Assembly: GCF_016907695.1 (NCBI RefSeq)
Contig: NZ_JAFBCK010000001.1
Coordinates: 1,240,001 to 1,304,000, forward strand
Length of the DNA: 64,000 nucleotides
Reading direction: 5' to 3'
DNA from: Actinokineospora baliensis
Lineage (GTDB): Bacteria; Actinomycetota; Actinomycetes; Mycobacteriales; Pseudonocardiaceae
Below are positions 4,992 through 18,325 of this stretch, piece after piece (position 1 is the first letter of the stretch; the number at the start of each line of letters is the position of its first letter). The notes below the pieces were generated by a model that searched no databases, was not told where the DNA came from, and worked only from the letters and a program-made list of their open reading frames with translations. A program made the translations under genes and the position numbers.

Positions 4992-6827
4992 TCAGGCAGC
5001 GGCGACGGCAGGGAGGGTCAGCAGCACCGAACCGGTGGTGTTCAGCAGGGCGCCACCGCCGCGGTGGATGAAGCGGAAGCCCACCTGGTCCTCCGAGAAC
5101 TTCGCGTCAACCGACCGTGCGACGCGAAGCGAACCGACGTAGCGGACGAGGAAGCCGCTCAGGTCGGACAGAACGATCTTGTTCTTGTTCGCGCCGGACA
5201 GCGCCGGATCGACCTCGACCGGGCGGGAGAACATCGTCAGGGCGCTTCCGTCCGAAATGGACTTCAGCATGTAGTTGCCGTCAGCGTCCTTGATCTTGCG
5301 CAGGCGCGAGACGGTCTCCCGGCCGGTGAGCCACGTCGCCCGGTTCGCCAGCGGAGTGGGGATCGCGTAGAAGGCGTCGGTCACGTGGTCCAGCGCGGCA
5401 GACTCGCTGCCCAGGGTGGTCGGCGCGAACCGCAGACTCGGGTGCACGCCCCGGTCGGTCGACAGCAGCGCGGCCATGAAGTCCCGGTTCATCTGGTCGG
5501 CGATGTTCGGCCCGGCATCCTCAGCCAGGAAGCCGATCAGGTCGACCGCGTCTTCCTCGATCAGCTCAGTGGGGACCCAGCTCAGGTGTCCGTACTTGGC
5601 CACCGCAACCGGTGCCTTGTCGGTCGTCGGGTAGTTCTCCGGGATCTGCGAACCCTCGGTGGGACGGCCGGTGGACGGCGTGGGGTAGACCCGGGGGAAC
5701 TCGATCGGCTCACCGCTGCGGGTGGTGATGGTGCGCGCCCCGTTGGTGATCACCGAGGAACGCTCCCCGATGACCTCCATGAGCTGGGTGAACAGCGTCT
5801 TCTCGGGAGTGGCCTTGCCGACCTGCTTGTTCGTCGCGTCGACTGTTACACCGAGCATCCCGCGGAACTCGGTCGCCTCGCCGGGCGCCAACGCGCGGAG
5901 CTGACGGGCTTCCTGCTCCGCCTTGGGCACGGTGGGCACGGTGGGCACGCCGTGTTCGGTGACCAGCTCGAGCACCCGCGCGCGGAACTCTGCGGTCGGG
6001 TCGGACTGCTGCGTCGGCCGGGCGGGGATCCCATGTTCGTCAAGCAGCGCGGAGACGCGGTCCCGGAACTCGTCCACCGCGCTGGTGGTGCGTTCCTCCG
6101 TGGTCAGCGCGGACAGCCGGGCGTCGAGACGGTCCAGGACGTCGAGTAGGCGTGCCTCTGCGTCAGGCCGGTTGTCGTCGGCGGCGCGCTGAAGAGCGTT
6201 CTCGACGTGGGCGCGCTCGTGACCGGTTGAAGTGGCGTCGGACGTCAAAGGGGTGTTCCCCTCCTTTACCTGAGCGGGAGACACCCGAGCGGGCTTCCCG
6301 GAGACGTGGTGCCGGAGCGCGGCAGGGATGGAGCGCCGGGCGGCCGTGGTGTCGGGGTAGGCGGGTGAGGTGACAGGGCCTAGTTCGGCGACGTGGAAGT
6401 CCCGGACAGTGCGGATCAGGAACCCGGTCGCGTCGTCGCGAGTCCACTCCTGGTCGGCTTCGTCGTCCTTCAGGCGGAAGGTGAACGAGGACCCCCGGAT
6501 GACGCGCCGCTTGACCAGCTCCGCGACGTCCCGGCCCGCAGTGGTGTCGGGAAGATCCACTTCGTACCAGCCGCCGACGTCGTCCACACCGGTCCGGAGC
6601 CCGTAGCCGGTGCGGCCCAGGGGAGCAGACGGGTCGTGGTTGAAGGTCGCGATCAGGTGCCCGGATTCCATGTCCGCGCGACCCGCGCCGCGTTCGATGC
6701 GCTCCCTGAACCCGCCCAGGTCATGGGAGAGCTTGTCGAACACGTAGGCGTAGCCCCTGAGCTTGAAGGTCTCACCGACCGCGCGGACCTCTACGTCGTG
6801 GGTGAGGTCGCGGCGCTCGACGGTCAT
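4992..6827 (-). CDS. Fused HK97-family prohead protease and major capsid protein
   Basis: One 611-residue frame from ATG 6827 (ATGA overlap with the portal stop) encodes two proteins that are usually separate. Residues about 10-170 match a U35 prohead protease (FKLRGYAYVFDKLS, FNHDP with His64, RGSSFTF with Ser113/114, VTSPAYPDTTA). After a linker, residues about 220-315 are helical with a repeated LDRLDARL/FRDRVSALLDEHG/FRARVLELVTEHG pattern, as in a scaffold (delta) region. The rest is an HK97-fold capsid (GEPIEFPRVYP, YPTTDKAPVAVAKYGHLSWV, FRFIHRGGGAL). The protease should cleave itself off during head maturation. The frame has no internal stop between the domains. Confidence 0.9.
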   Translation of the reverse strand: MTVERRDLTHDVEVRAVGETFKLRGYAYVFDKLSHDLGGFRERIERGAGRADMESGHLIATFNHDPSAPLGRTGYGLRTGVDDVGGWYEVDLPDTTAGRDVAELVKRRVIRGSSFTFRLKDDEADQEWTRDDATGFLIRTVRDFHVAELGPVTSPAYPDTTAARRSIPAALRHHVSGKPARVSPAQVKEGNTPLTSDATSTGHERAHVENALQRAADDNRPDAEARLLDVLDRLDARLSALTTEERTTSAVDEFRDRVSALLDEHGIPARPTQQSDPTAEFRARVLELVTEHGVPTVPTVPKAEQEARQLRALAPGEATEFRGMLGVTVDATNKQVGKATPEKTLFTQLMEVIGERSSVITNGARTITTRSGEPIEFPRVYPTPSTGRPTEGSQIPENYPTTDKAPVAVAKYGHLSWVPTELIEEDAVDLIGFLAEDAGPNIADQMNRDFMAALLSTDRGVHPSLRFAPTTLGSESAALDHVTDAFYAIPTPLANRATWLTGRETVSRLRKIKDADGNYMLKSISDGSALTMFSRPVEVDPALSGANKNKIVLSDLSGFLVRYVGSLRVARSVDAKFSEDQVGFRFIHRGGGALLNTTGSVLLTLPAVAAA

Positions 6828-8176
6828 GCAGCCCCCAGTTCCTCCCCCGTCGTCGCGGGGGGTGTGTCGTCGGTGACCGCGTCCGGCTCGCCGTCGTGTT
6901 CGGGTGCCGTGGCCGCGGTGCCGGACAGGACCAGAGGTCCGTCCGGAGTGAGAACCGCCAGGGAGGTCTGGGCACGGAGGAACCCGCCCAGGCCCGAGGG
7001 GTCCGGCGGCAGGTCTTCCCAGGCCCTGACCTCGTCGGGGGTGTAGATCGAGTTCGCGATACCGACGCGGTAGGACTCCAGGCGCTCCCGCAGGCTGCCG
7101 CGCATGAGCGCGTCGAGCTGGAACCGGATGAACGCCCCAGCTCGACGTTCGGCATCGGTGAACAGCGTGGTGAACGCCTCTTCGAGCCGTTCCGCCCAGG
7201 CACGCACCGCGAACTGGACAAAACCCGTGTTCTGTTCGGCCAAGCCGCTGCCCCACGACGTGGAGCCGGACGCGTCAGCCAACAGGTGGGGCGGAACCCC
7301 GAATATGCGCGCCACGTCGGCGATCTGGAACGCACGGGTCTGGAGGAACTGCGCTTCCTCCGGGCTGATCGTGACGCGCTGGAAGCGGGCATCCTCGGTG
7401 AGTACGGCCAACCCGAACCGGTTGCCGCGGCCACCGTGGATCGTGCGCCACGTCTCCCGTGCCGCTCGCAGACCGGCGGCCGTCATGGTCCCGGGAACCG
7501 AGATAACCGCCCCGGGGATCGCGCCGCGCTCGAAGAAGTCCGCGCCGAACGCCTGTGCAGCGAGCCCCAGGCGAAGCGTCTCCCGGGCCGCGCGCAACGG
7601 CGAGACCCCGGTGAGCTGACCGGCGAGGGTGATCCCCTGGATGTGCAGGACGTCCCGCTGCTCCAGGGCGCCGACCACCTGGAGTCGGCCGTCTTCGTCG
7701 AGCGCCGACAGTTCGTAGACCAGACGTCGTGTCCGCCCGCGACCGGTGTACCTCGGTGTGACGGCAGAGGTCGGGATGACGTCGAGCGCGACGACCCGCC
7801 CCATCGAGCGGGTGATGAGGATGTACGCGTTGCCTTGCAACAGAAGCGACGTCATCACCGACACCAGGAACGCGATCCATCGGGTGTCCGGGTTCGGAGC
7901 GTCGAGCCAGCCGGGTCGGGGCATCGGCAGTCGGCGGCCACCGTCGCGGCGGAAGGCGTCCACGGGGGTGGTGCCGAGTGTGTCCGACAGGATGCGCACC
8001 GACCCGTACACGGCCGACAGCGCGAGAGCGGCGTCCGGGGTCAGGTCGGCGGTGGCGTCGGTGTCGGTCGTCCACCCCATCAAGCCGGACGTGTCGGTGG
8101 CCTCTGCGGCGTCGACGTTGTCCGATCGGGATTCGGTGCGCGGCAGCGAGGGAGCGAGAAACGACAGGAAGCCCAA
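6824..8176 (-). CDS. Phage portal protein (HK97 family)
   Basis: This is a 450-residue dodecameric DNA gate of the capsid. The start is TTG 8176 with GGGAGG about 10 nt upstream. Portal features include AALALSAVYGSVRILSDTLG near residue 50, SLLLQGNAYILI, GVPPHLLAD and STSWGSGLAEQNTGFVQFAVRAWAERLEEA. It overlaps the downstream protease-capsid gene by 4 bp, indicating translational coupling. Length and neighbours are standard. Confidence 0.92.
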   Translation of the reverse strand: MGFLSFLAPSLPRTESRSDNVDAAEATDTSGLMGWTTDTDATADLTPDAALALSAVYGSVRILSDTLGTTPVDAFRRDGGRRLPMPRPGWLDAPNPDTRWIAFLVSVMTSLLLQGNAYILITRSMGRVVALDVIPTSAVTPRYTGRGRTRRLVYELSALDEDGRLQVVGALEQRDVLHIQGITLAGQLTGVSPLRAARETLRLGLAAQAFGADFFERGAIPGAVISVPGTMTAAGLRAARETWRTIHGGRGNRFGLAVLTEDARFQRVTISPEEAQFLQTRAFQIADVARIFGVPPHLLADASGSTSWGSGLAEQNTGFVQFAVRAWAERLEEAFTTLFTDAERRAGAFIRFQLDALMRGSLRERLESYRVGIANSIYTPDEVRAWEDLPPDPSGLGGFLRAQTSLAVLTPDGPLVLSGTAATAPEHDGEPDAVTDDTPPATTGEELGAA

Positions 8177-8420: not shown

Positions 8421-9947
8421 TCACCATGGGTCCTCCGGCTCCGTCCAGGGGTCGCCATCGACCAGGAAGCCATCCGACATTCGGGGGCGCGCATCGCGAT
8501 ACAGGCGCGCGCGGTGCAACGCGATGACGAATGCCACGGCCAGGTCGATATGGCGGCGCGATGTCGGGGACTCTTTTGTAATGCGCTCTCCGCGCGAATC
8601 CGTTTTCACCACACAGTTGTTCACGTGGCGGGTCAGCTCCGGCTGTCCGGCATGGGTAATCTCGCCGTCAACGATCGCGCTATAGGCGCCCTGGGTCGCT
8701 GGAACCATGCGAGCCACCGAGTTCGGGAACTCGACCATGGGCAAACCGTCATCCTCAAGCATCTGCGCCTGAACGGAGAACCACGCCGGATCGAACGCGA
8801 CTTCGCGAACCGCGTACGTGCGGCAGACCTCCCGAACGCGCTCCACGACGTCATGGATCGGGGTTCGCCAGTGCGGGTCGTCAGGCTTTGCTTCCCAGTG
8901 CCCCAAGGCTTGGACGTGGAGATCCGACAGTCTGACCCCGACCAACGCTGTGGAGTCGTTTCGCCACGCAGAGTCGACCGCGACCACCAACGCGTCGCCC
9001 GGAACGAAGGTGCTGTCCGCCCGGGACAGGCGCGACCAGGCTCCGTGAGGGAGCCAAACAGCGCCGCCGCGGACGAACTCGTTCAAGCGGTACATTCGGA
9101 AGTTGGATTCCGGAGTTCGCTTGACGCTCGACACAAAGTCGGCCTGGTTCATAATCGACCACGACGGGTTGCAACGCTCCCATACCGCCGGGTCCGTGTG
9201 GTCGACCGTCTCTCCAGGCTGAACCCCGAACCATGCCGACCAGAACGTAGGGTCCTCTTCCTCGCCGGAGGCCACACGGAAGCCGTAGTCCACCAGCGAA
9301 GCGAAAGGGCCATCCGGATATGGACCTGCGGTCGAGATCACAAGCACAAGGGGCTGTCGCCGCTGTGCGGACCCGAGAGTCAGCGCGTCAAAGAGATCGC
9401 TGTTCTTCGCCTGTGCGTACTCGTCCATCACGACAAAGGAGGGGTTTAGTCCCTGCTGTAGACCCGCGTCGGCGGACACCGCGAAGAAGCTCCCGCCGGT
9501 GGCATGGCACACGATCCGATCCCGGAGAACCGTGCACATCTCGGACAGGATCGGCGACATGCGAACCATCCGCGCCGCCTCCCTGAAAAGAAGCCTCGCC
9601 TGTTCGCGCGTATTCGCTGCGCACACCACTTCAGGTGCTTTATCGCGCGTGTCCGCGCAAAGATGATAAAGAGCGAGTGCAGCCGCAAGAGCTGTCTTGC
9701 CATTTTTTCGCGCCACACCGAGAACGGCGGTCCGATGCTTTCGCGACCCGTCCGCGTCGAGCCGGTAGATCGCGTCGATGACGATCTTCTGCCACGCTAG
9801 TAGTCGGAATCGACTCCCCAGATACGAGCCCCCCAGCGTGAGGTGTTGAACGAACCGGCGAACCCGCTTCCCTTCAGTGGTGAACCCCAGGAAGAGAACC
9901 ACCCCCGCCCGGTCACTCGTCCTCGAAATCCCCCAGAAGGTCGGCAA
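8421..9947 (-). CDS. terL: Terminase large subunit
   Basis: This is the ATP-driven DNA packaging motor and genome-cutting nuclease. Numbered from TTG 9947, a Walker A-like GVARKNGKT lies at residues 77-85, Walker B VVMDE at 173-177, and the nuclease acidic cluster begins with VVAVDSAW (Asp326). The C-terminus ends in a Trp/Pro/Glu-rich tail. TTG 9947 overlaps the small subunit by 35 bp. A GTG at 9902, just after the small-subunit stop, is an alternative start and would remove 15 residues that are not part of the ATPase core. Confidence 0.93.
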   Translation of the reverse strand: MPTFWGISRTSDRAGVVLFLGFTTEGKRVRRFVQHLTLGGSYLGSRFRLLAWQKIVIDAIYRLDADGSRKHRTAVLGVARKNGKTALAAALALYHLCADTRDKAPEVVCAANTREQARLLFREAARMVRMSPILSEMCTVLRDRIVCHATGGSFFAVSADAGLQQGLNPSFVVMDEYAQAKNSDLFDALTLGSAQRRQPLVLVISTAGPYPDGPFASLVDYGFRVASGEEEDPTFWSAWFGVQPGETVDHTDPAVWERCNPSWSIMNQADFVSSVKRTPESNFRMYRLNEFVRGGAVWLPHGAWSRLSRADSTFVPGDALVVAVDSAWRNDSTALVGVRLSDLHVQALGHWEAKPDDPHWRTPIHDVVERVREVCRTYAVREVAFDPAWFSVQAQMLEDDGLPMVEFPNSVARMVPATQGAYSAIVDGEITHAGQPELTRHVNNCVVKTDSRGERITKESPTSRRHIDLAVAFVIALHRARLYRDARPRMSDGFLVDGDPWTEPEDPW

Positions 9948-10407
9948 GGGTCGCTTGCTTGATTGCGTTCGCCGCGAGGCCCAGACGAAGGCGCGATTCG
10001 AGATTTAGTCCCAGAACCGTTTCAATCGCGCGCATCTCGCGCTCCGTGCTTTCCACGAACCGCAACAGTGGATGCGCGACCGGCTGTCCCGTACTGCCCT
10101 CGGTGACCACGCCGTCAGCCGCGATCCGGCGAAGGAAGGCGTCCCGCCGGTCATGCAACTCGCAGTACCGCGCCACCACGTATCGGTCCGTGACCGGGTG
10201 GTACGCCCCACTAGCCGCCGACCACACAGCCCGCCACACCTCACGCCCCACCACGCCCAGCGATGTCGGTACCCGTGGCGACCGGCCGCTGTGCACGGTC
10301 GGTGCCGCTCGCGCATCGGTGGGACCGCGGGCGTTTCCGCTCGGTTGTGCATTGGCGCGCGACACCCCGCCCCCTTTCGACGATCTCCCATGTCGACCGG
10401 AAGACAC
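9913..10407 (-). CDS. terS: Terminase small subunit (P27 family)
   Basis: This is the DNA-recognition subunit of the packaging machine. Features are PRVPTSLGVVGREVWRAVWSAASGAYHPVTD, then YCELHDRRDAFLRRI and HPLLRFVESTEREMRAIETVLGLN, a pattern of the P27-type small terminases. GTG 10407 gives 164 residues. GTG 10365, preceded by AAAGGGGGCGGG, would give 150 and may be the real start. It directly precedes the large subunit. Confidence 0.84.
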   Translation of the reverse strand: MSSGRHGRSSKGGGVSRANAQPSGNARGPTDARAAPTVHSGRSPRVPTSLGVVGREVWRAVWSAASGAYHPVTDRYVVARYCELHDRRDAFLRRIAADGVVTEGSTGQPVAHPLLRFVESTEREMRAIETVLGLNLESRLRLGLAANAIKQATLADLLGDFEDE

Positions 10408-10931: not shown

Positions 10932-11528
10932 TCACCCATGATCATGTCGCTCCCACCTGCGAAGCCGTTCCAGGTTGGCGTCCGGCGCGAAGGCCAGGAA
11001 GGTCCCGTCGGCGGAGTCGCAGTCGAGTTCTTTTGCGTAGCGCCAACGTTTTCCGGAGTTGACGCGTCCCATGTGGAGCCAGAGGCCCCGCCTCTTCGCG
11101 TGCTGAGCGAGCTGTGCGGCGTCTGGCGACAGCTTCCAGTCGGTGGTACCGCCGATGAACAGAACGTCGATCGACGCCCACGGGATCGCGCGCTCCACCA
11201 GGCCGTCCTGGGCAACCAGGGCGGCGCGATAGCCGCGGGCGCGGATCGCGTCGAACCACGGCGCCGACCGGGCCAGCGTGGCGCGGGCGTCGCCGACGAC
11301 GTCCGGGGCGGTGGCGAACAGACAGCGGTAGTGCCCGTGGAGGCGGTCGAGCCAACGTAACCACGCTTCATCACCTGGGTAGCCGCTGCCAAAGCATCCC
11401 GTGTCCGCTGCCCAACGTGTCCCGGGGGTCGGCACACGGCCTTCCGCTGGAGTGCACATCTGTCCCAGCTCCCCGGTGGTCATCGCCGCCCGGATGGCGG
11501 CGGAACTCGCGTTGGCCAGGTAGAGCAC
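10932..11528 (-). CDS. dpdA: DpdA-like DNA-guanine transglycosylase (small phage type)
   Basis: The probable role is base exchange of guanine in DNA for a 7-deazaguanine such as preQ0, protecting phage DNA from restriction. The 198-residue protein keeps the spaced motifs of the tRNA-guanine transglycosylase fold: ADTGCF (Asp42, like DSGGFQ), APDVVGD (75-80), FIGGTTDWK (like the IGG loop), WLHMGRVNSG (151-159) and CDSADGT (170-176). It begins MLYLANASSAAIRAAM. It is much shorter than tRNA enzymes and lacks their zinc-binding region. Downstream of a queuosine-precursor transporter and a PP-loop enzyme, it completes a modification cassette. Its start lies 158 bp inside the transporter frame. The family call is by motif reading only. 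Confidence 0.76.
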   Translation of the reverse strand: MLYLANASSAAIRAAMTTGELGQMCTPAEGRVPTPGTRWAADTGCFGSGYPGDEAWLRWLDRLHGHYRCLFATAPDVVGDARATLARSAPWFDAIRARGYRAALVAQDGLVERAIPWASIDVLFIGGTTDWKLSPDAAQLAQHAKRRGLWLHMGRVNSGKRWRYAKELDCDSADGTFLAFAPDANLERLRRWERHDHG

Positions 11529-12021
11529 GCCGCACCCCCTTCGCAGCGAGCACGAGCGCGGCGCTACACCACACGCTCTTGACCAGGAGGAAGCCGCATA
11601 CCGTCGCGGCGGTGATGGGGAGTCCGGCCAGGGGCAGGAACACGAAGGTGTCCACCACGGCGCCGACGACGTTGGAGATCACGGCGGCGACAACCCAGCC
11701 GTGGCGGCGGAGTCGGGTGAACACCGTGTAGTCCGCCAACTCCGACAGCGCGAACGCCGCGCCGCTGGCGATGGCGACCGCAGGTGCGATAGCCGCGGAG
11801 ATGACGGTGCCGACGGCGATCACGAAGAGCACTGGCCGTCGGCCGCCGACGTGGTGGAGCGCGTCGCGAAGGGTGAGAACGGCTCCGGCGGCGTAGGTCC
11901 CCGCTGTGACGGTCAGGCCGAAACCTGCGGGAACGAGTCCGAGAGTGGTCGTCAGCATGTTCGCGCCGACGACCGCAGCGAGAAAGGCCAGCGCGAGCGC
12001 GCACGTGAACAGCCGTGGCAC
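11371..12021 (-). CDS. yhhQ: YhhQ/VUT-family queuosine precursor (preQ0/preQ1) transporter
   Basis: The start is GTG 12021 with GGAGG five bases upstream. Residues 1-160 form about six membrane helices with YhhQ landmarks: GANMLTTTLG, AGTYAAGAVLTLRD, SGAAFALSELADYTVFTRLRR, and SNVVGAVVDTFVFLPLAG. E. coli YhhQ imports 7-deazaguanine precursors. Here it would supply preQ0 to the adjacent DpdA-like enzyme, as the visible part of the prophage has no preQ0 biosynthesis genes. The last about 53 residues are hydrophilic, overlap dpdA, and may be unselected read-through to the first stop. Confidence 0.83.
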   Translation of the reverse strand: MPRLFTCALALAFLAAVVGANMLTTTLGLVPAGFGLTVTAGTYAAGAVLTLRDALHHVGGRRPVLFVIAVGTVISAAIAPAVAIASGAAFALSELADYTVFTRLRRHGWVVAAVISNVVGAVVDTFVFLPLAGLPITAATVCGFLLVKSVWCSAALVLAAKGVRRALPGQREFRRHPGGDDHRGAGTDVHSSGRPCADPRDTLGSGHGMLWQRLPR

Positions 12022-12034
12022 GAAGCCTCCAGGG

Positions 12035-13096
12035 CTAGGACGGGGAGCGGGTCGAACACGACTGGCACAGCGGCCCGGACCGCGGAGCACCACGGGAACC
12101 GCGACTGCGGTAGGCACCCCAGCCCCATTCGCAGCGTTCGGGCGTGATGCCGCGCGCAAGCGCTTCTGCGGAGAGGCGGTCGAGCCATCGGACGACGTCC
12201 GGGTACCACTGGCGGATCTCGTCCAGCTCTCCCGACGCGGCGAAGGCGCCGCACAGGCACTCGCCGCTCATGTGTAGGTGATCGGCGACCGGATTGCGGG
12301 GTACGGCGAAGCGAGCGCGGTAGGTGTTCAGGTCGAGCTTGGTCCACAGCGCGAGCGGACTCACCCAGACCACCGAGCCTTCGCGCTCGTGCAGCGGCAC
12401 CTGGATCCGGCGGGCGGATTCCTCGCGACGGCGACCGGCAATGAAGATCACCCGTTCGCGGCGCGGGTGCGTCACCAGCTCGCGCCGCGCTTGCCGCAAG
12501 CCTCGTTCCTTCAGGCGTTGGTACATCTTGAAGTGGTGTGCGGGGCCGGGGAAGCCTTGGGCAAGCACCAGGTCCCGATAGGTCGAGCCTTCCGGGGGGA
12601 AGCGCTCGAGCAGCGGCAGGCCCCACGCCCGGCAGGTCTCCCGGACGAAGACGCGGGTCGCCTCGATGCCGATGGTGGTGTTCGCGTGGATCGCGTGGGT
12701 GGCACGTTCACGCATCAAGTGCGTGAGCGCGGTTGAGTCGTTCCCGCCGCTGAACAACACGCACGTCGCGACCACCGACTTGCCTGCGGCGTGTTCGGCG
12801 ATCGCCTCATCCACGATGCGGTGCGCCTGGTCGATCAACGTCGACAGTCGCTCTTCACGCTGGGTGGCACTCAGCGCCGCGACGTCGGCCGACGTCCAAA
12901 CATGGTCCTTCAGGTCTAGCTGCCTCTCGATGCCAGCGCGGCCCGGCCGGAGAGCACACCGCGGTCTCGCGCGGGGCTCGATCCAGCCGGACCGGGCTTC
13001 CGGGTCGCCAACCAGCGGGTTGACCGACGTTCGGAAGGGCGCCAAGCGGGACAACCGGGGCTTATCGCGCCCGATAGGCACTGCCCAGAACAGCAT
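12035..13096 (-). CDS. PP-loop ATPase, PAPS-reductase-like (phage type)
   Basis: This is an adenine-nucleotide alpha-hydrolase fold enzyme with a PP-loop FSGGNDSTAL near residues 116-125 and IAGRRREESARR in the second half. A C-terminal cysteine set (GECLCGAF, CEWGWG, LCQSC) could bind a metal or FeS cluster, as in DndC- or TtcA-like sulfur-transfer proteins. GTG 13099 and ATG 13096 are adjacent possible starts. The first 60 residues look poorly conserved, and the real start may be further in. It ends 14 bp before the transporter start, so the three genes are one transcription unit. The reaction is unknown. Activation or sulfur transfer on the modified base is one possibility. Confidence 0.8.
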   Translation of the reverse strand: MLFWAVPIGRDKPRLSRLAPFRTSVNPLVGDPEARSGWIEPRARPRCALRPGRAGIERQLDLKDHVWTSADVAALSATQREERLSTLIDQAHRIVDEAIAEHAAGKSVVATCVLFSGGNDSTALTHLMRERATHAIHANTTIGIEATRVFVRETCRAWGLPLLERFPPEGSTYRDLVLAQGFPGPAHHFKMYQRLKERGLRQARRELVTHPRRERVIFIAGRRREESARRIQVPLHEREGSVVWVSPLALWTKLDLNTYRARFAVPRNPVADHLHMSGECLCGAFAASGELDEIRQWYPDVVRWLDRLSAEALARGITPERCEWGWGAYRSRGSRGAPRSGPLCQSCSTRSPS

Positions 13097-13198
13097 CACC
13101 GCAGGTCATAAGGCTGCGCGGCCGAAAAATCGGGCACGCACTCAGGCGGTGTCCAGAAAGGGGCCGGGGTGTCCTTGAGCCCCCGCGCCGGTGAACTT

Positions 13199-13510
13199 TC
13201 AGCCCACCCCGCCCACCGCGTCGGTGGTTGTCTTGTCCTGGTGACACCGCACGCACAGCGCTTGCAGGTTCCCGGGCTCATCACGCCCGCCGCGGAACAG
13301 CGGTCGCACATGGTCGACCCTGATGAGCGCGGCGGGGAACACCACACCGCAGCTCGCGCACAACGCTGAACCCGTCTGGTTGATCGCGCGCCGTAGAGCG
13401 CGGCGAGCGCGTTCGGTCCCCGGCCGCCGGGTGGCACCGCCACAGCGAGCGCACAGCGACGATCCGGCTACCGCGCGACCCGGGCACAGACGACACGCCT
13501 TCGCGACCAT
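13199..13510 (-). CDS. HNH endonuclease
   Basis: The 103-residue protein starts at ATG 13510 (GGGGGTG upstream), with a TTG four codons earlier as an alternative. Two CxxC pairs frame the nuclease: CRLC and CARC at the N-terminus, then CASC, VDHVRPLFRGGRDEPGNLQALCVRCHQDKT, the classic His-Asn-His/zinc knuckle. Phage HNH proteins often assist terminase in genome cutting. This one is separated from the terminases by the modification cassette, so a packaging role is plausible but not certain. Confidence 0.86.
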   Translation of the reverse strand: MVAKACRLCPGRAVAGSSLCARCGGATRRPGTERARRALRRAINQTGSALCASCGVVFPAALIRVDHVRPLFRGGRDEPGNLQALCVRCHQDKTTTDAVGGVG

Positions 13511-13752
13511 CCGCACCCCCAAGCAGCAGCGCCCTTCATCCCTCTCTCCCCCCGCGCTATTCCCGCTGACCTGGGGTTTTGCTAGCAGCGCTGGTGGCGT
13601 TACGCATCTGTAACCGACCAGGTGTCAGGGTTTGGGTGTCAAGGTGACGTGTTGGCGATCCGTCTGGGAACTCTTGTGCAAGGAAGGAAGCCACTAGCGA
13701 AGGGCAGTGTCGAAGGAGGCATCGAGATGACACGTCGGCACCCCTTGGGGGC

Positions 13753-14558: not shown

Positions 14559-16127
14559 TCAGGCCCAGTGCTCCAGTGCCATCGGTTCGTCTGAGCCGGT
14601 CGCGGCCGGTTTGCGGTGGTCGAAGCGGATGCGGTCGAGCATGGGAACGCCGTCGGAGATCTTGCCGGAGATCTCGATGCGGACGCCGTTCTCCCGTAGC
14701 CGCTCCCGGCGGGTCGTCCAGCTTGTTGACTGCCATTCCTGTCGATAGGTGACGCCGGTCGACACCCACTTGACCCCCGCTGGGCGGCGCGGCGCGGCGT
14801 GTAGCGACGTCAAGCGCGTCTCAAGGTTGGTCATCATCGTGCGGTAGCGCGTCTCGCCCTTCTCACCCTTGAATAGACCTCCTTCGTACCGGTCGCGGGT
14901 CAGGTCGTCGATCGCGGCTTCTACTTCCACGATCTCGCCGGAGTGGTCCTCACCCGGGTCCACCGTGCGCAGCAACAACGGAAGGTCTCCCGTCAGCGCC
15001 AGGAACTCCCTTTCCACGTACTCTTCAACTTCCGCCGCGTGCACCGACGCCCCGGGACAGACGCCCCGACCTTCGTATCCGGCCTTGCAACGGTAGGCAA
15101 CGTGATCCTTGCTTGGCGTGCGGTACATCCGATCGCCGCAAACGCACCAAAGGATGCCCAGCAAGGCAGCCTGCGGCGGACGCCCGGCACGGTCAGGGTC
15201 TGCCCGCTTCGCGATCGCGGCCTGGAGGTCTCGAAACTCCTGGTCCGTGACGATCGACTCCCCGTACCGCAAGGGCATGCCGTCTTCGTCGCGTTCAATA
15301 ACCTCCCCGGAGTGCACCACGTTGCGGAGCGATTCGGACCGGAGTATCCGACGCAGCGCCGGGACGGCCCATCCCGCGCGCCGCCGGTCGTCGTCGCTCC
15401 GCAGTTCTTCTGCGCTCTTCTTCTTCCCACCCCGCTTCTTGTTAGCCTTCTCCGCCCTCCGGTTGCGTGCCACTTCCTGGCCGGTGGGGATGCAACGATC
15501 ATTGAAAAGGCGCACAACCGACAGCATCGGTTCCCCGGCGATCACGCGTAACACGGCTTCCCTGATGATCGGGGCGGTCTCCGGATCGGGCTCCAGTGCA
15601 TACCCAACACCGTCCGGGTGCGGGCAAGTCCGGTACCCGTAGGAAACGCGCCCGGCACCCCATCGCGCCACCTTCCGCATATGCGTTCGGGCGCCCCGAA
15701 CCCGATCACCGATCGCCTTGCCCTCCATCTCCGCGAACGCCGCCAGGATGAAGGCGATGACCTTGCCGATCATGGAAGAGAAGTCAATGTCGGGATTCAA
15801 GCAGATGAGCTGCTTGCCGTTCTCCTCTGCCCATTCGAGCAGGGTTACGAAGTCTTTTAGGTTCCGGCAAAGCCGGTCGATCGATCGGAACACCAGCGCG
15901 TCGAACAGGTGCGGGTTCCGGAGCCATGCGCCCAACTGGGGCCGGTCGAAGGGGGACACCTTCGAGCCGGACACGTCCAGGTCCATCGCCTCGCCGACCT
16001 GGATCATCCCGCGACGGGTGATCTCCGCTTCGTTGTTGCCGCTCTGGGTGGTCGGCGACGTCGTCACATCCGTGTAGGAGGACAGCCGAACCACGCTCAC
16101 CGCTCGCTTGACCTGCGCATCTGCCAC
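14559..16127 (-). CDS. int: Large serine recombinase (phage integrase)
   Basis: This 522-residue enzyme inserts and removes the prophage by a Ser-DNA intermediate. Catalytic Ser16 lies in SVVRLSSYTD. The resolvase domain continues with VFRSIDRLCRNLKDFVTLLEWAEENGK and FAEMEGKAIGDRVRGAR. The recombinase domain follows with WGAGRVSYGYR. A zinc ribbon (CVCGDRMYRTPSKDHVAYRC, then GVCPG) and a C-terminal coiled-coil-like region complete the large-serine-integrase layout. The start is GTG 16127, abutting one of two 14-bp palindromes. The adjacent broken host gene at 16193 marks the attachment site it used. Confidence 0.95.
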   Translation of the reverse strand: MADAQVKRAVSVVRLSSYTDVTTSPTTQSGNNEAEITRRGMIQVGEAMDLDVSGSKVSPFDRPQLGAWLRNPHLFDALVFRSIDRLCRNLKDFVTLLEWAEENGKQLICLNPDIDFSSMIGKVIAFILAAFAEMEGKAIGDRVRGARTHMRKVARWGAGRVSYGYRTCPHPDGVGYALEPDPETAPIIREAVLRVIAGEPMLSVVRLFNDRCIPTGQEVARNRRAEKANKKRGGKKKSAEELRSDDDRRRAGWAVPALRRILRSESLRNVVHSGEVIERDEDGMPLRYGESIVTDQEFRDLQAAIAKRADPDRAGRPPQAALLGILWCVCGDRMYRTPSKDHVAYRCKAGYEGRGVCPGASVHAAEVEEYVEREFLALTGDLPLLLRTVDPGEDHSGEIVEVEAAIDDLTRDRYEGGLFKGEKGETRYRTMMTNLETRLTSLHAAPRRPAGVKWVSTGVTYRQEWQSTSWTTRRERLRENGVRIEISGKISDGVPMLDRIRFDHRKPAATGSDEPMALEHWA

Positions 16128-16173
16128 GCAAGGATCCTTGCATGGCCTCTAGTTTCCGCGCAAGGATCCTTGC
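16128..16173. repeat. Twin 14-bp palindromes at the integrase start
   Basis: GCAAGGATCCTTGC occurs twice, at 16128-16141 and 16160-16173, and each copy is perfectly self-complementary. Their centres are 32 bp apart, about three helical turns. The first copy covers the likely ribosome binding site of the integrase, so protein binding here could control integrase production or form part of the recombination complex. Confidence 0.8.
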
Positions 16174-16174
16174 G

Positions 16175-16225
16175 CGACTGCCTGTAGAAGCTTCACTTCT
16201 GGCAGCAGAAGGTCCAGAAGTCCAG
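16175..16225. other. Probable prophage attachment site (right junction)
   Basis: Host coding sequence on the minus strand reads normally through DFWTFCC and then changes to phage-like sequence with a stop four codons later. The integrase gene starts about 50 bp away. The junction therefore lies near 16195-16215. A short dyad CTTCTG/CAGAAG is present there, as expected for a serine-integrase site. The other prophage end is outside the window, so the exact core cannot be fixed. Confidence 0.7.
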
Positions 16226-16342
16226 GAGGAGGACCTTGCCGCGGAAGTCACCGAGGTGCAGGTCCTTGCCACCGGTGTTGAGCCAACCGCGACCGATCAA
16301 CTCGGGAGCACGCGACAGGCGACGGGGTTGTGCTGTGGTCAC
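16193..16342 (-). pseudogene. 5' fragment of a thioredoxin/NHL-repeat protein split by the prophage
   Basis: From GTG 16342 the frame reads VTTAQPRRLSRAPELIGRG, then WLNTGGKDLHLGDFRGKVL and LLDFWTFCCQK, followed by a stop. Actinobacterial thioredoxin-like NHL-domain proteins of about 600 residues start this way and continue WTFCCINCLHVLDEL. The fragment breaks immediately after the first two cysteines of that redox motif. The remaining gene should lie beyond the other prophage end, outside the window. Excision would restore it. While the phage is resident the host probably lacks this protein. Confidence 0.82.
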
Positions 16343-16440
16343 GTGAGAAGTGAACAGCGTCCCGGGTGCGGCCTGTTCCCGGGCCCACCATGTGAGCGAA
16401 CCACCCTTTCGTTTTGTTCGTTTCCCGCTAGAATGGGGCA

Positions 16441-16935
16441 ATGACAGCGATCGCGGGAGAGCGGACCGTGCTACCACCGGACAGCCCGGAGGTCCTGTCG
16501 CCGTGGGTCCGTGCGCTGACGCAGGCCGCCGGGGGTCGTGCGACCCTCGTCGCGCCCGATGGATCAGCGCTGGAACTGCCCGCCGAGGTGTTCGAAGTCC
16601 TGCGCGATGTGGTCATGGCCATGTCGCAGGGGCTGGCGATCACCGTCGCGCCACAGCACACCGTGCTGACCACGAGCGAGGCCGCGCACCTGCTGGGGAT
16701 CTCGCGGCCTACCCTCGTTCGGCTGTTGGAAGCGGGCGAGATCCCCTACGAGCAGCCGAACCGGCATCGCAGATTGCGCTTGGCGGATGTGCTCGCCTAC
16801 CAAGACCGCGCACGGCGAGCACGGGCATCCGGCCTGGACGAGATGGTCCGCAGCGGCGAGGACAGCGGGATCTACGACCTGCCGTTAGACACCCCGTTCG
16901 AACGGACCCCACCGGACGACGACACCCAAGAGTGA
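16441..16935 (+). CDS. HTH (excisionase-type) protein, probable antitoxin of a PIN toxin
   Basis: This 164-residue protein has a MerR/excisionase-like helix-turn-helix at about residues 79-123 (LTTSEAAHLLGISRPTLVRLLEAGEIPYEQPNRHRRLRLADVLAY). Its acidic C-terminus (EDSGIYDLPLDTPFERTPPDDD) is suited to masking a nuclease partner. A TAGAAT -10-like box ends 6 bp before ATG 16441, suggesting a leaderless mRNA. The stop lies 3 bp before the PIN gene. It is therefore read as antitoxin and autorepressor of the pair. This assignment follows family knowledge, not direct proof. Confidence 0.8.
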   Translation: MTAIAGERTVLPPDSPEVLSPWVRALTQAAGGRATLVAPDGSALELPAEVFEVLRDVVMAMSQGLAITVAPQHTVLTTSEAAHLLGISRPTLVRLLEAGEIPYEQPNRHRRLRLADVLAYQDRARRARASGLDEMVRSGEDSGIYDLPLDTPFERTPPDDDTQE

Positions 16936-16938
16936 GCT

Positions 16939-17502
16939 TTGTACCCCGCGTTCATCGACACCTGCGTGCTGCTGAAGCCCTACCTCTGTGACACGTTGCT
17001 GAGCATCGCCGAAGCTGGGCTCTACCGTCCACTGTGGTCTGCGGGCGTCCTGGAAGAACTAGCGAGGAACCTCAGCAGACGGGGGCTGTCGGACGTCCAG
17101 GTCGCGCACCGGCTCGACCAGATGAACCGGCACTTCCCGGACGCCGAGGTATCCGGCTACGCGGATCTCATCCCCGCGATGACGAACCACCCGAAGGACA
17201 GACACGTCCTCGCGGCGGCCGTCCGGGGTGGCGCCGCCTCGCTCGTGACCGAGAACCTGAAGGACTTCCCCCGTGGTGCGCTGACCCCGTACGGCGTCGC
17301 GGCTCTCCACCAGGACGAGTTCCTCCAAGATCAGCTGGACCTGGCCCCGTGGCGGGTTGTCGAGGCTCTCCGGCGGCAGGCATCCCGGTACCGCAGGGAT
17401 CCGCGGTCGGTCGAGGACCTCCTCGGCATTCTGGGCGATGACAACCACAGGTGCACCGGCTTCACAGAGGAGGTCCGGCGCCTGATGGGCGTCGGCTCGT
17501 GA
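16939..17502 (+). CDS. PIN-domain ribonuclease, probable toxin
   Basis: The 187-residue PIN protein (VapC-like superfamily) starts at TTG 16939, giving YPAFIDTCVLLKPYLCD, with the first catalytic Asp in FIDTCVL. Conserved acidic positions follow in VLEELARNL, HPKDRHVLAAAV and LVTENLKDFP, where the DRH and TENLKDFP segments are typical. PIN toxins cleave RNA. It is coupled to the upstream HTH gene with only 3 bp between them. It lies just outside the prophage end on the host side. Confidence 0.84.
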   Translation: MYPAFIDTCVLLKPYLCDTLLSIAEAGLYRPLWSAGVLEELARNLSRRGLSDVQVAHRLDQMNRHFPDAEVSGYADLIPAMTNHPKDRHVLAAAVRGGAASLVTENLKDFPRGALTPYGVAALHQDEFLQDQLDLAPWRVVEALRRQASRYRRDPRSVEDLLGILGDDNHRCTGFTEEVRRLMGVGS

Positions 17503-17560
17503 TGCCGGCTCCGCGCTAAATCAGCTGAAGGCACGGCGGTGTCGGGGCTAGGTTCCGAGC

Positions 17561-18325
17561 GTGATCGACCACGGCATCAAGTACCACACGTTTCGGGTGA
17601 ACCTCGTTCCTTCCGTGATCTCGCTGGCCAACCCGCCGTGGCAGCGGGAGGTGTGGGGGCGGCCGAGTGAGTTCGAGACCCTCGATGAAGTGGTGCACGT
17701 GTTGTTCGACGACTTCTGTGATGCGTGTGCGCCGGAGAAGTACCTGGGCGTGAGTCTGCGGACGGAGCGGGAAGTCGAGTTGATGCGGCAGGTCGGCGTC
17801 ACCTACACGGCCGTTCAGGATGAGGTTGGTGGGTTGGCGCCGGATGAGGATTTCCTCGCGGATCCGGGGTGGCCGGAGGTGGTGGCCGCGGCGGGGAGGC
17901 TTGCGCCGGAGTTGGTCAAGAACGACATGCACGCGTTGATGTCGCTGCGCGAGGCGGGGCACCAGTGGCCGCCGGAGGTTGGGGCTGGTCGCGCACGCGT
18001 TGTGCCTGCTGTGGTCTTGTTGGCTTGCCCGACGTGGCAGCGGGAGGTGTGGGGTGCGTCCGCGAACCTCGATGAGCTGTTCGACTCGCCTGAGCGGTTT
18101 CTGGGCGACAGCCTGCGCACCGGGGAAGAGGTCGAGCTGACGAGGCAGTTGGGGGTGGCGTACTCGGCGGTGCGGGACGCGGCGTACCTCGACTCCGACG
18201 GGTGGACGGAGGTCGTGGCCGCGGCGGGGCGGTTGGCGCAGGTGATGGTGACCAGTGACCTGCAGGCGTTGGCGATGCTCGACGACTCGGGCCACCCGTG
18301 GCCGCCGGAGGTCAGCGGCGGGTGA
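17561..18325 (+). CDS. Tandem-duplicated two-domain protein of unknown function
   Basis: The 254-residue protein consists of two copies of one unit, at about residues 12-141 and 147-253. Shared landmarks are PPWQREVWG/PTWQREVWG, SLRTEREVELMRQVGV/SLRTGEEVELTRQLGV, VVAAAGRLA in both, and HQWPPEV/HPWPPEV. Single-unit proteins of this kind are common and uncharacterised in streptomycetes (SCO4402-like). The fusion suggests that the unit normally dimerises. The 3' end overlaps the convergent methyltransferase by 14 bp. No catalytic motif is recognised. Confidence 0.78.
   Translation: MIDHGIKYHTFRVNLVPSVISLANPPWQREVWGRPSEFETLDEVVHVLFDDFCDACAPEKYLGVSLRTEREVELMRQVGVTYTAVQDEVGGLAPDEDFLADPGWPEVVAAAGRLAPELVKNDMHALMSLREAGHQWPPEVGAGRARVVPAVVLLACPTWQREVWGASANLDELFDSPERFLGDSLRTGEEVELTRQLGVAYSAVRDAAYLDSDGWTEVVAAAGRLAQVMVTSDLQALAMLDDSGHPWPPEVSGG

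Follow-up and report, generated by a model that had tools for sequence, protein, structure and literature searches.

The locus described here lies in a window of 64,000 nucleotides from Actinokineospora baliensis (the window being the whole stretch of DNA analysed: contig NZ_JAFBCK010000001.1, positions 1,240,001 to 1,304,000), where an earlier note, made from the letters alone, had seen a prophage-borne cassette of three genes for modification of DNA with 7-deazaguanines. On the minus strand, the gene order is HNH endonuclease, PP-loop gene, Vut_1 transporter, a 198-codon gene and terminase genes. All open reading frames (ORFs) of the supposed cassette are present and, as claimed, co-oriented:

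12035..13099, minus strand: PP-loop (PAPS-reductase-like) ATP-binding enzyme, 354 amino acids, with ATG at 13096 and GTG at 13099 (PF01507)
11371..12021, minus strand: Vut_1/YhhQ-type queuosine-precursor transporter, 216 amino acids from the GTG at 12021 (Pfam PF02592)
10932..11528, minus strand: mini-DpdA (phrog_15826), a 198-residue single-domain transglycosylase-type barrel (AlphaFold2, Foldseek/VIA, profile match to phage DpdA)

The transporter gene shares 158 bp with that of mini-DpdA, which is read in another frame, and Shine-Dalgarno-like runs, judged by eye, are seen upstream of the GTG starts of both.

The AlphaFold2 model of mini-DpdA is a confident, compact eight-stranded barrel (predicted local distance difference test score (pLDDT) 95.3, predicted template modelling score (pTM) 0.91). 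Its closest solved folds in both Foldseek and VIA are tRNA-guanine transglycosylases (TGTs), so that the structure prediction called for in the earlier note did return a TGT-fold match. In profile comparison, mini-DpdA matched the phage DpdA of the Enterobacteria phage 9g type (phrog_887) with an HHalign probability of 96.1, an E-value of 3.1e-9 and a score of 67.1, while 20 shuffles gave a top score of 15.5. Eight residues (D42, P75, D76, Q107, G127, H152, G154 and R155) are invariant in all 83 aligned sequences, 78 of them distinct, and D174 is kept in 82; among these candidate active-site residues, D42 and H152 align with the aspartate of the 9g DSGxF motif and with 9g H196, D174 being offset by 3 residues from the column of 9g D215. 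The TGT-type motifs previously listed for the small enzyme are likewise present and conserved in its family. Both enzymes are encoded by tailed phages, but the 9g type is larger, at about 300 residues (251-352 in 12 aligned) against about 200, and is often accompanied by preQ0 synthesis genes, whereas mini-DpdA mostly occurs without QueC. With its 198 residues, mini-DpdA reaches about two thirds of the length of the 9g enzyme itself (317 residues).

None of the Pfam and NCBIfam models for TGT or DpdA, PF23859 and NF041059 included, matched mini-DpdA at E up to 1; DpdA2 of Vibrio phage nt-1 and Sonali gp87 likewise have no Pfam match (E up to 0.01). Searching solved structures by sequence returned no match to TGT for mini-DpdA, and none for the single 9g DpdA sequence. 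Two assignments were dropped: membership in DpdA2, as the single nt-1 sequence (464 amino acids) gave no signal (HHalign score 16.0), and profile homology to bacterial TGT, which scored 14.6, known DpdA against TGT also being weak at 29.0. Judged by fold, profile and gene slot (described below), mini-DpdA is best placed as a subfamily of its own within the TGT/DpdA superfamily; the earlier description of a DpdA-like transglycosylase holds on these three grounds and finds no match among curated models. PHROGs labels the family, phrog_15826, "unknown function", and the proposal made below would give it one. Actinophage members had already been named by annotators: the small "DpdA-like tRNA-guanine transglycosylase" proteins Sonali 81, Aoka 40 and GreaseLightnin 55 are 51-63% identical to mini-DpdA over 89-92% of the protein. 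In the literature searched, we found no test of this actinophage protein and no link to the transporter, a description of the subfamily or the pairing elsewhere being possible. Matches at E up to 0.001, most of them partial, occur in 5 of 397 genomes of the host order, counting the window's own. Two bacterial frames of about 340 amino acids (loci L042 and L043) match mini-DpdA residues 66-186 and 66-176 with 42-44% identity. In Erythrobacter phage ZS04 (L117 1-939, and L052), the homologue carries the annotation "DarB-like antirestriction protein"; at the opposite end of the linear record stands a PAPS-reductase-like gene.

The transporter is over the Pfam cut-off for PF02592 Vut_1 (39.5 bits against 27.2, E 9.3e-10), as the YhhQ/VUT assignment predicted, and below the TIGR00697 cut-off for queuosine precursor transporter equivalogs (37.4 bits against 50.95). 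Viral relatives were collected by profile searches; a search with the lone transporter sequence matched only itself, and a first profile was too diverse to be useful, so narrower profiles were employed. Five loci from a TerL query, intended as a background set, were left aside. The best 80 of 340 loci were taken with a profile seeded on mini-DpdA-linked transporters, and the best 80 of 91 with PF23859-linked seeds. Removal of 37 repeated loci of 156 (those with identical 160 bases inside the transporter gene) left 119 distinct loci, of which flanks of up to 3 kb around the transporter were inspected. Loci were counted from profile searches of stop-to-stop frames and not from crude gene calls, because gene calling gave doubtful frames in some high-GC loci.

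A transglycosylase-type gene was found within 3 kb at 116 of these 119 viral loci: mini-DpdA at 78, a PF23859 DpdA at 29 and a phrog_887 DpdA at 9. At 107 loci, the enzyme gene is on the same strand, directly downstream within 600 bases. The three loci without an enzyme are L129, which is cut off shortly after the transporter, L175 and L201. All 80 loci of the second set (PF23859-linked seeds) have a transglycosylase-type gene; in the first, the median gap between transporter and mini-DpdA matches is -17 bases over 61 loci, including two weak matches (L164 and L194) that score better as phrog_887 DpdA. Representative neighbours were assigned to PF23859 by Pfam (E 7.6e-91 and 3.2e-93) and to phrog_1279 and phrog_887 by PHROGs, the others of these classes by profiles built in the analysis. 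PF23859 DpdA (phrog_1279, "DeoxyPurine in DNA protein A"), at about 250 residues, has only weak profile similarity to mini-DpdA but occupies the corresponding position beside this transporter. Because the linkage is split among three families, we conclude that mini-DpdA occupies the slot of recognised DpdAs, and that importer and transglycosylase make up a recurrent phage module. At L016, the genes for transporter and mini-DpdA are immediately followed by a C5-cytosine DNA methylase gene (6633-7565).

A search over the full length of 40 records that match mini-DpdA covered 8 phage records and 32 contigs from IMG/VR, a good many of the latter fragmentary (near-duplicates retained). A Vut_1 match is present in 24, over cut-off in 22; an earlier clustering of loci, which left out 6 near-duplicates picked by eye as well as L007, whose phage is that of L003, had the transporter in 20 of 30. 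QueC is found in 5 records and missing from 35. A full-size 9g-type DpdA is found in four (phiG7, R29Z, Sonali and G418), all with QueC (Fisher P 5.5e-5). Mutual exclusivity of transporter and QueC was considered and dropped (Fisher P 0.14). At L028 the order is PTPS/QueD, a QueE-like gene (recognised by eye, with no Pfam match at E up to 0.01), QueC and mini-DpdA, with FolE 1.5 kb further; at L023, QueC comes directly after mini-DpdA; and in Sonali, phiG7 and R29Z, mini-DpdA is accompanied by synthesis genes and by a second, separate DpdA of some 300 residues. Since these phages carry synthesis genes, mini-DpdA keeps 7-deazaguanine company even where the transporter is missing. In Microbacterium phage Megan (L113), two adjacent genes annotated as queuine tRNA-ribosyltransferase precede QueC.

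The host genome, a single contig of 7.68 Mb, encodes QueC, QueE and QueD consecutively (L057 6309-11527), with a TgtA-like gene diverging from them (TIGR00432 227.7 bits against a cut-off of 350); it has one QueA-type match and no hit for QueF. The Que locus is adjoined by an ABC exporter gene and a distant Rmt-like 16S rRNA methyltransferase, far under cut-offs. Because the host encodes QueC, QueE and QueD, preQ0 could come from it. Clear QueC (E 1e-35 or better) occurs in 12 of 16 genomes of the host genus, the remaining 4 having only matches of about 1e-4 to 1e-5. Judging from these genes, the host could thus supply the base in this case, and relatives differ in this capacity, a situation to which a phage with an importer of its own would be well suited. 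The earlier note had the phage lacking preQ0 synthesis genes and depending on the host or on uptake, in a system relying on salvage. QueC is indeed absent from the prophage record, FolE, QueD and QueE not having been searched for there; the importer-transglycosylase unit agrees with salvage, and the host genes could offer a second source.

Together, these results make it probable that the transporter and mini-DpdA form a module of two genes, optionally joined by a third, that modifies phage DNA with salvaged 7-deazaguanine; its substrate, its DNA target and the protection from restriction we infer. The transporter would import a 7-deazaguanine as the free base (preQ0 and preQ1 being the likeliest), which in this host could also derive from QueC-QueE-QueD. 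Mini-DpdA would then swap selected guanines in DNA for the imported base, via the aspartate-dependent exchange of the TGT/DpdA superfamily, and the modified DNA would be cut less well by restriction enzymes. Two observations weigh against this proposal. Firstly, other barrels nearly tie with TGT in the Foldseek and VIA searches, which is why the fold match alone was dropped as proof of TGT/DpdA identity. Secondly, the task of mini-DpdA may differ in phages that have synthesis genes and a separate DpdA.

Phage preQ0 transporters and salvage by phages have been proposed before, in PMC6884629, PMC8310023 and related papers. Phages with DpdA only may depend on host preQ0 or uptake (PMC6884629), and MED16, which has DpdA only, contains dADG (PMC8306585). 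In Seuratvirus and Enterobacter phage EC151, a phage-encoded preQ0 transporter is proposed to raise cellular preQ0; unlike here, it is clustered with DpdA and a complete synthesis pathway (PMC8310023). A figure legend lists preQ0/preQ1 transporters in phage clusters (PMC7472734), YhhQ is named as an alternative route to preQ0 (PMC11945000), HCTV-1 and HCTV-16 have YhhQ and HRTV-29 has DpdA alone (PMC8651126), and transporter-TGT fusions occur in bacteria (PMC11130926). In bacterial dpd islands, DpdA inserts 7-deazaguanines in DNA and YhhQ is found in about 9% of islands, but these are modification-restriction islands with dpdB-dpdK, unlike the phage pair (PMC11888242). Hutinet et al. 2019 had YhhQ uncorrelated with any phage group; the salvage module offers a possible reason for phages to carry a queuosine-precursor transporter. 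The near-constant presence of an enzyme beside the viral transporter relatives examined suggests that a scavenged nutrient may serve many phages as a disguise for their DNA. Because mycobacteria are reported to have none of the Q genes (the DNA of Orion is unmodified; PMC6884629), the DNA of GreaseLightnin-type phages, which infect M. smegmatis, would, if the proposal is true, be expected to carry the modification only with added base.

The PP-loop protein matches PF01507 PAPS_reduct over cut-off (E 4.8e-12), which bears out its description as PAPS-reductase-like, and stays below the cysH cut-offs (35.8 bits against 154 for PRK02090, 20.2 against 165.1 for TIGR00434). All 9 aligned sequences, that of the window among them, have an SGGxDS loop and C281, C283, C345 and C348. 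The model (pLDDT 71.9, with residues 1-61 and 322-354 below 50) finds CysH 6vpu as best Foldseek match (E 2.7e-9), CysH/APS reductase being the nearest folds and TtuA/NcsA sulfurtransferases ranking lower. If the three genes made up one pathway, this enzyme would activate the imported base, or thiolate or amidate it, and such folds would fit. So would the recurrence of the same subfamily beside the transporter-enzyme pair in Rhodococcus phage ReqiPine5, where gp02-gp04 are the same three genes (small enzyme 57% identical) in another order, annotated merely as PAPS reductase, conserved protein and membrane protein. A relative (45% identity over 291 columns) is found at L215, and other PP-loop subfamilies lie near the pair at L022/L165, L172, L179, L209, L248, L274 and in Aoka. 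Yet PP-loop genes of any subfamily occur near only 8 of the 119 transporter loci, the prophage included (a raw count), and around close relatives of the gene (L072-L078, 7 of 7) the DNA examined has no match to mini-DpdA, transporter, phrog_887 or PF23859. PAPS_reduct matches are present in 7 of the 40 mini-DpdA records, over cut-off in 3, two of the weak ones falling on QueC genes. We therefore dropped the PP-loop gene as a core part of the module on the count of 8 loci, and regard a single three-gene pathway as rather unlikely. Of the three-gene cassette first described, the transporter and transglycosylase stand as a unit, and the PP-loop gene appears to be accessory at most. As a guess, its product may alter the inserted base further. 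A bolder version of the salvage proposal, which we hold possible but doubtful, is that a minimal self-sufficient pair of importer and transglycosylase of about 200 residues modifies the genome only when surroundings or host supply a 7-deazaguanine; genome chemistry and protection would be nutrient-dependent and, with the PP-loop gene, the base would be converted into a further novel DNA base.

A different possibility is that the target of mini-DpdA is RNA, be it tRNA or some other, and that the phage salvages queuosine precursors for tRNA modification and thereby adjusts translation. The best solved fold matches of mini-DpdA are tRNA enzymes, the host has a QueA-type hit, a TgtA-like gene as its only transglycosylase and no QueF hit, and "tRNA-guanine transglycosylase" is the label used by actinophage annotators. 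We nevertheless consider an RNA target improbable: the enzyme has only 198 amino acids, a four-ligand zinc site is not evident in it (3 alignment columns are mostly Cys), and it interchanges with DpdA families near the same transporter. At L009 (6001-8586), mini-DpdA is also fused in frame within an 862-residue protein whose C-terminal part has a sub-threshold PD-(D/E)XK nuclease match (20.7 bits against a cut-off of 22), which hints at a DNA-linked role.

Equally improbable, in our view, is that mini-DpdA is an eraser or second-specificity enzyme, which removes or exchanges 7-deazaguanines set by another system, e.g. a dpd-type system of the host. The four records that pair it with a separate full-size DpdA would suit such a role, as would the mini-DpdA matches that are split, over two adjacent ORFs in phiG7 and over two pieces or ORFs in SHIN8, as if dispensable there. 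Against this, 36 of the 40 records have no detected 9g-type DpdA (the sole DpdA type searched there), and an adjoining importer fits insertion better than removal. That the transporter carries an unrelated vitamin and is linked by accident, as the Pfam family name "putative vitamin uptake transporter" and the unmet TIGR00697 cut-off might suggest, is scarcely credible given transglycosylase-type genes of three families at 116 of 119 distinct loci.

The prophage setting of the salvage module, which the earlier note had recognised, is borne out by its surroundings and by an IMG/VR virus record of 35,743 bases that includes the locus, the 12,001 bases compared being identical to the window. The prophage ends are not fixed, because no direct repeat of at least 12 bases was found between window positions 16001-18000 and the first 5,000 bases of L054; ends defined by such a repeat were dropped. 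Terminase, portal, protease/capsid and serine integrase genes lie inside the window; genes that give the module its context are:

14559..16127, minus strand: serine integrase, close to the prophage's right end (PF00239 E 6e-20; phrog_95 integrase E 6.7e-85)
13199..13522, minus strand: HNH endonuclease of the prophage (PF01844 E 1e-10)
9913..10407, minus strand: terminase small subunit (PF05119 E 1.7e-13)
8421..9947, minus strand: terminase large subunit (PF03354 E 1.2e-22)

To the left of the window, genes for a minor tail protein, endolysin, exonuclease, DNA methyltransferase, primase, DNA polymerase and endonuclease VII are found.
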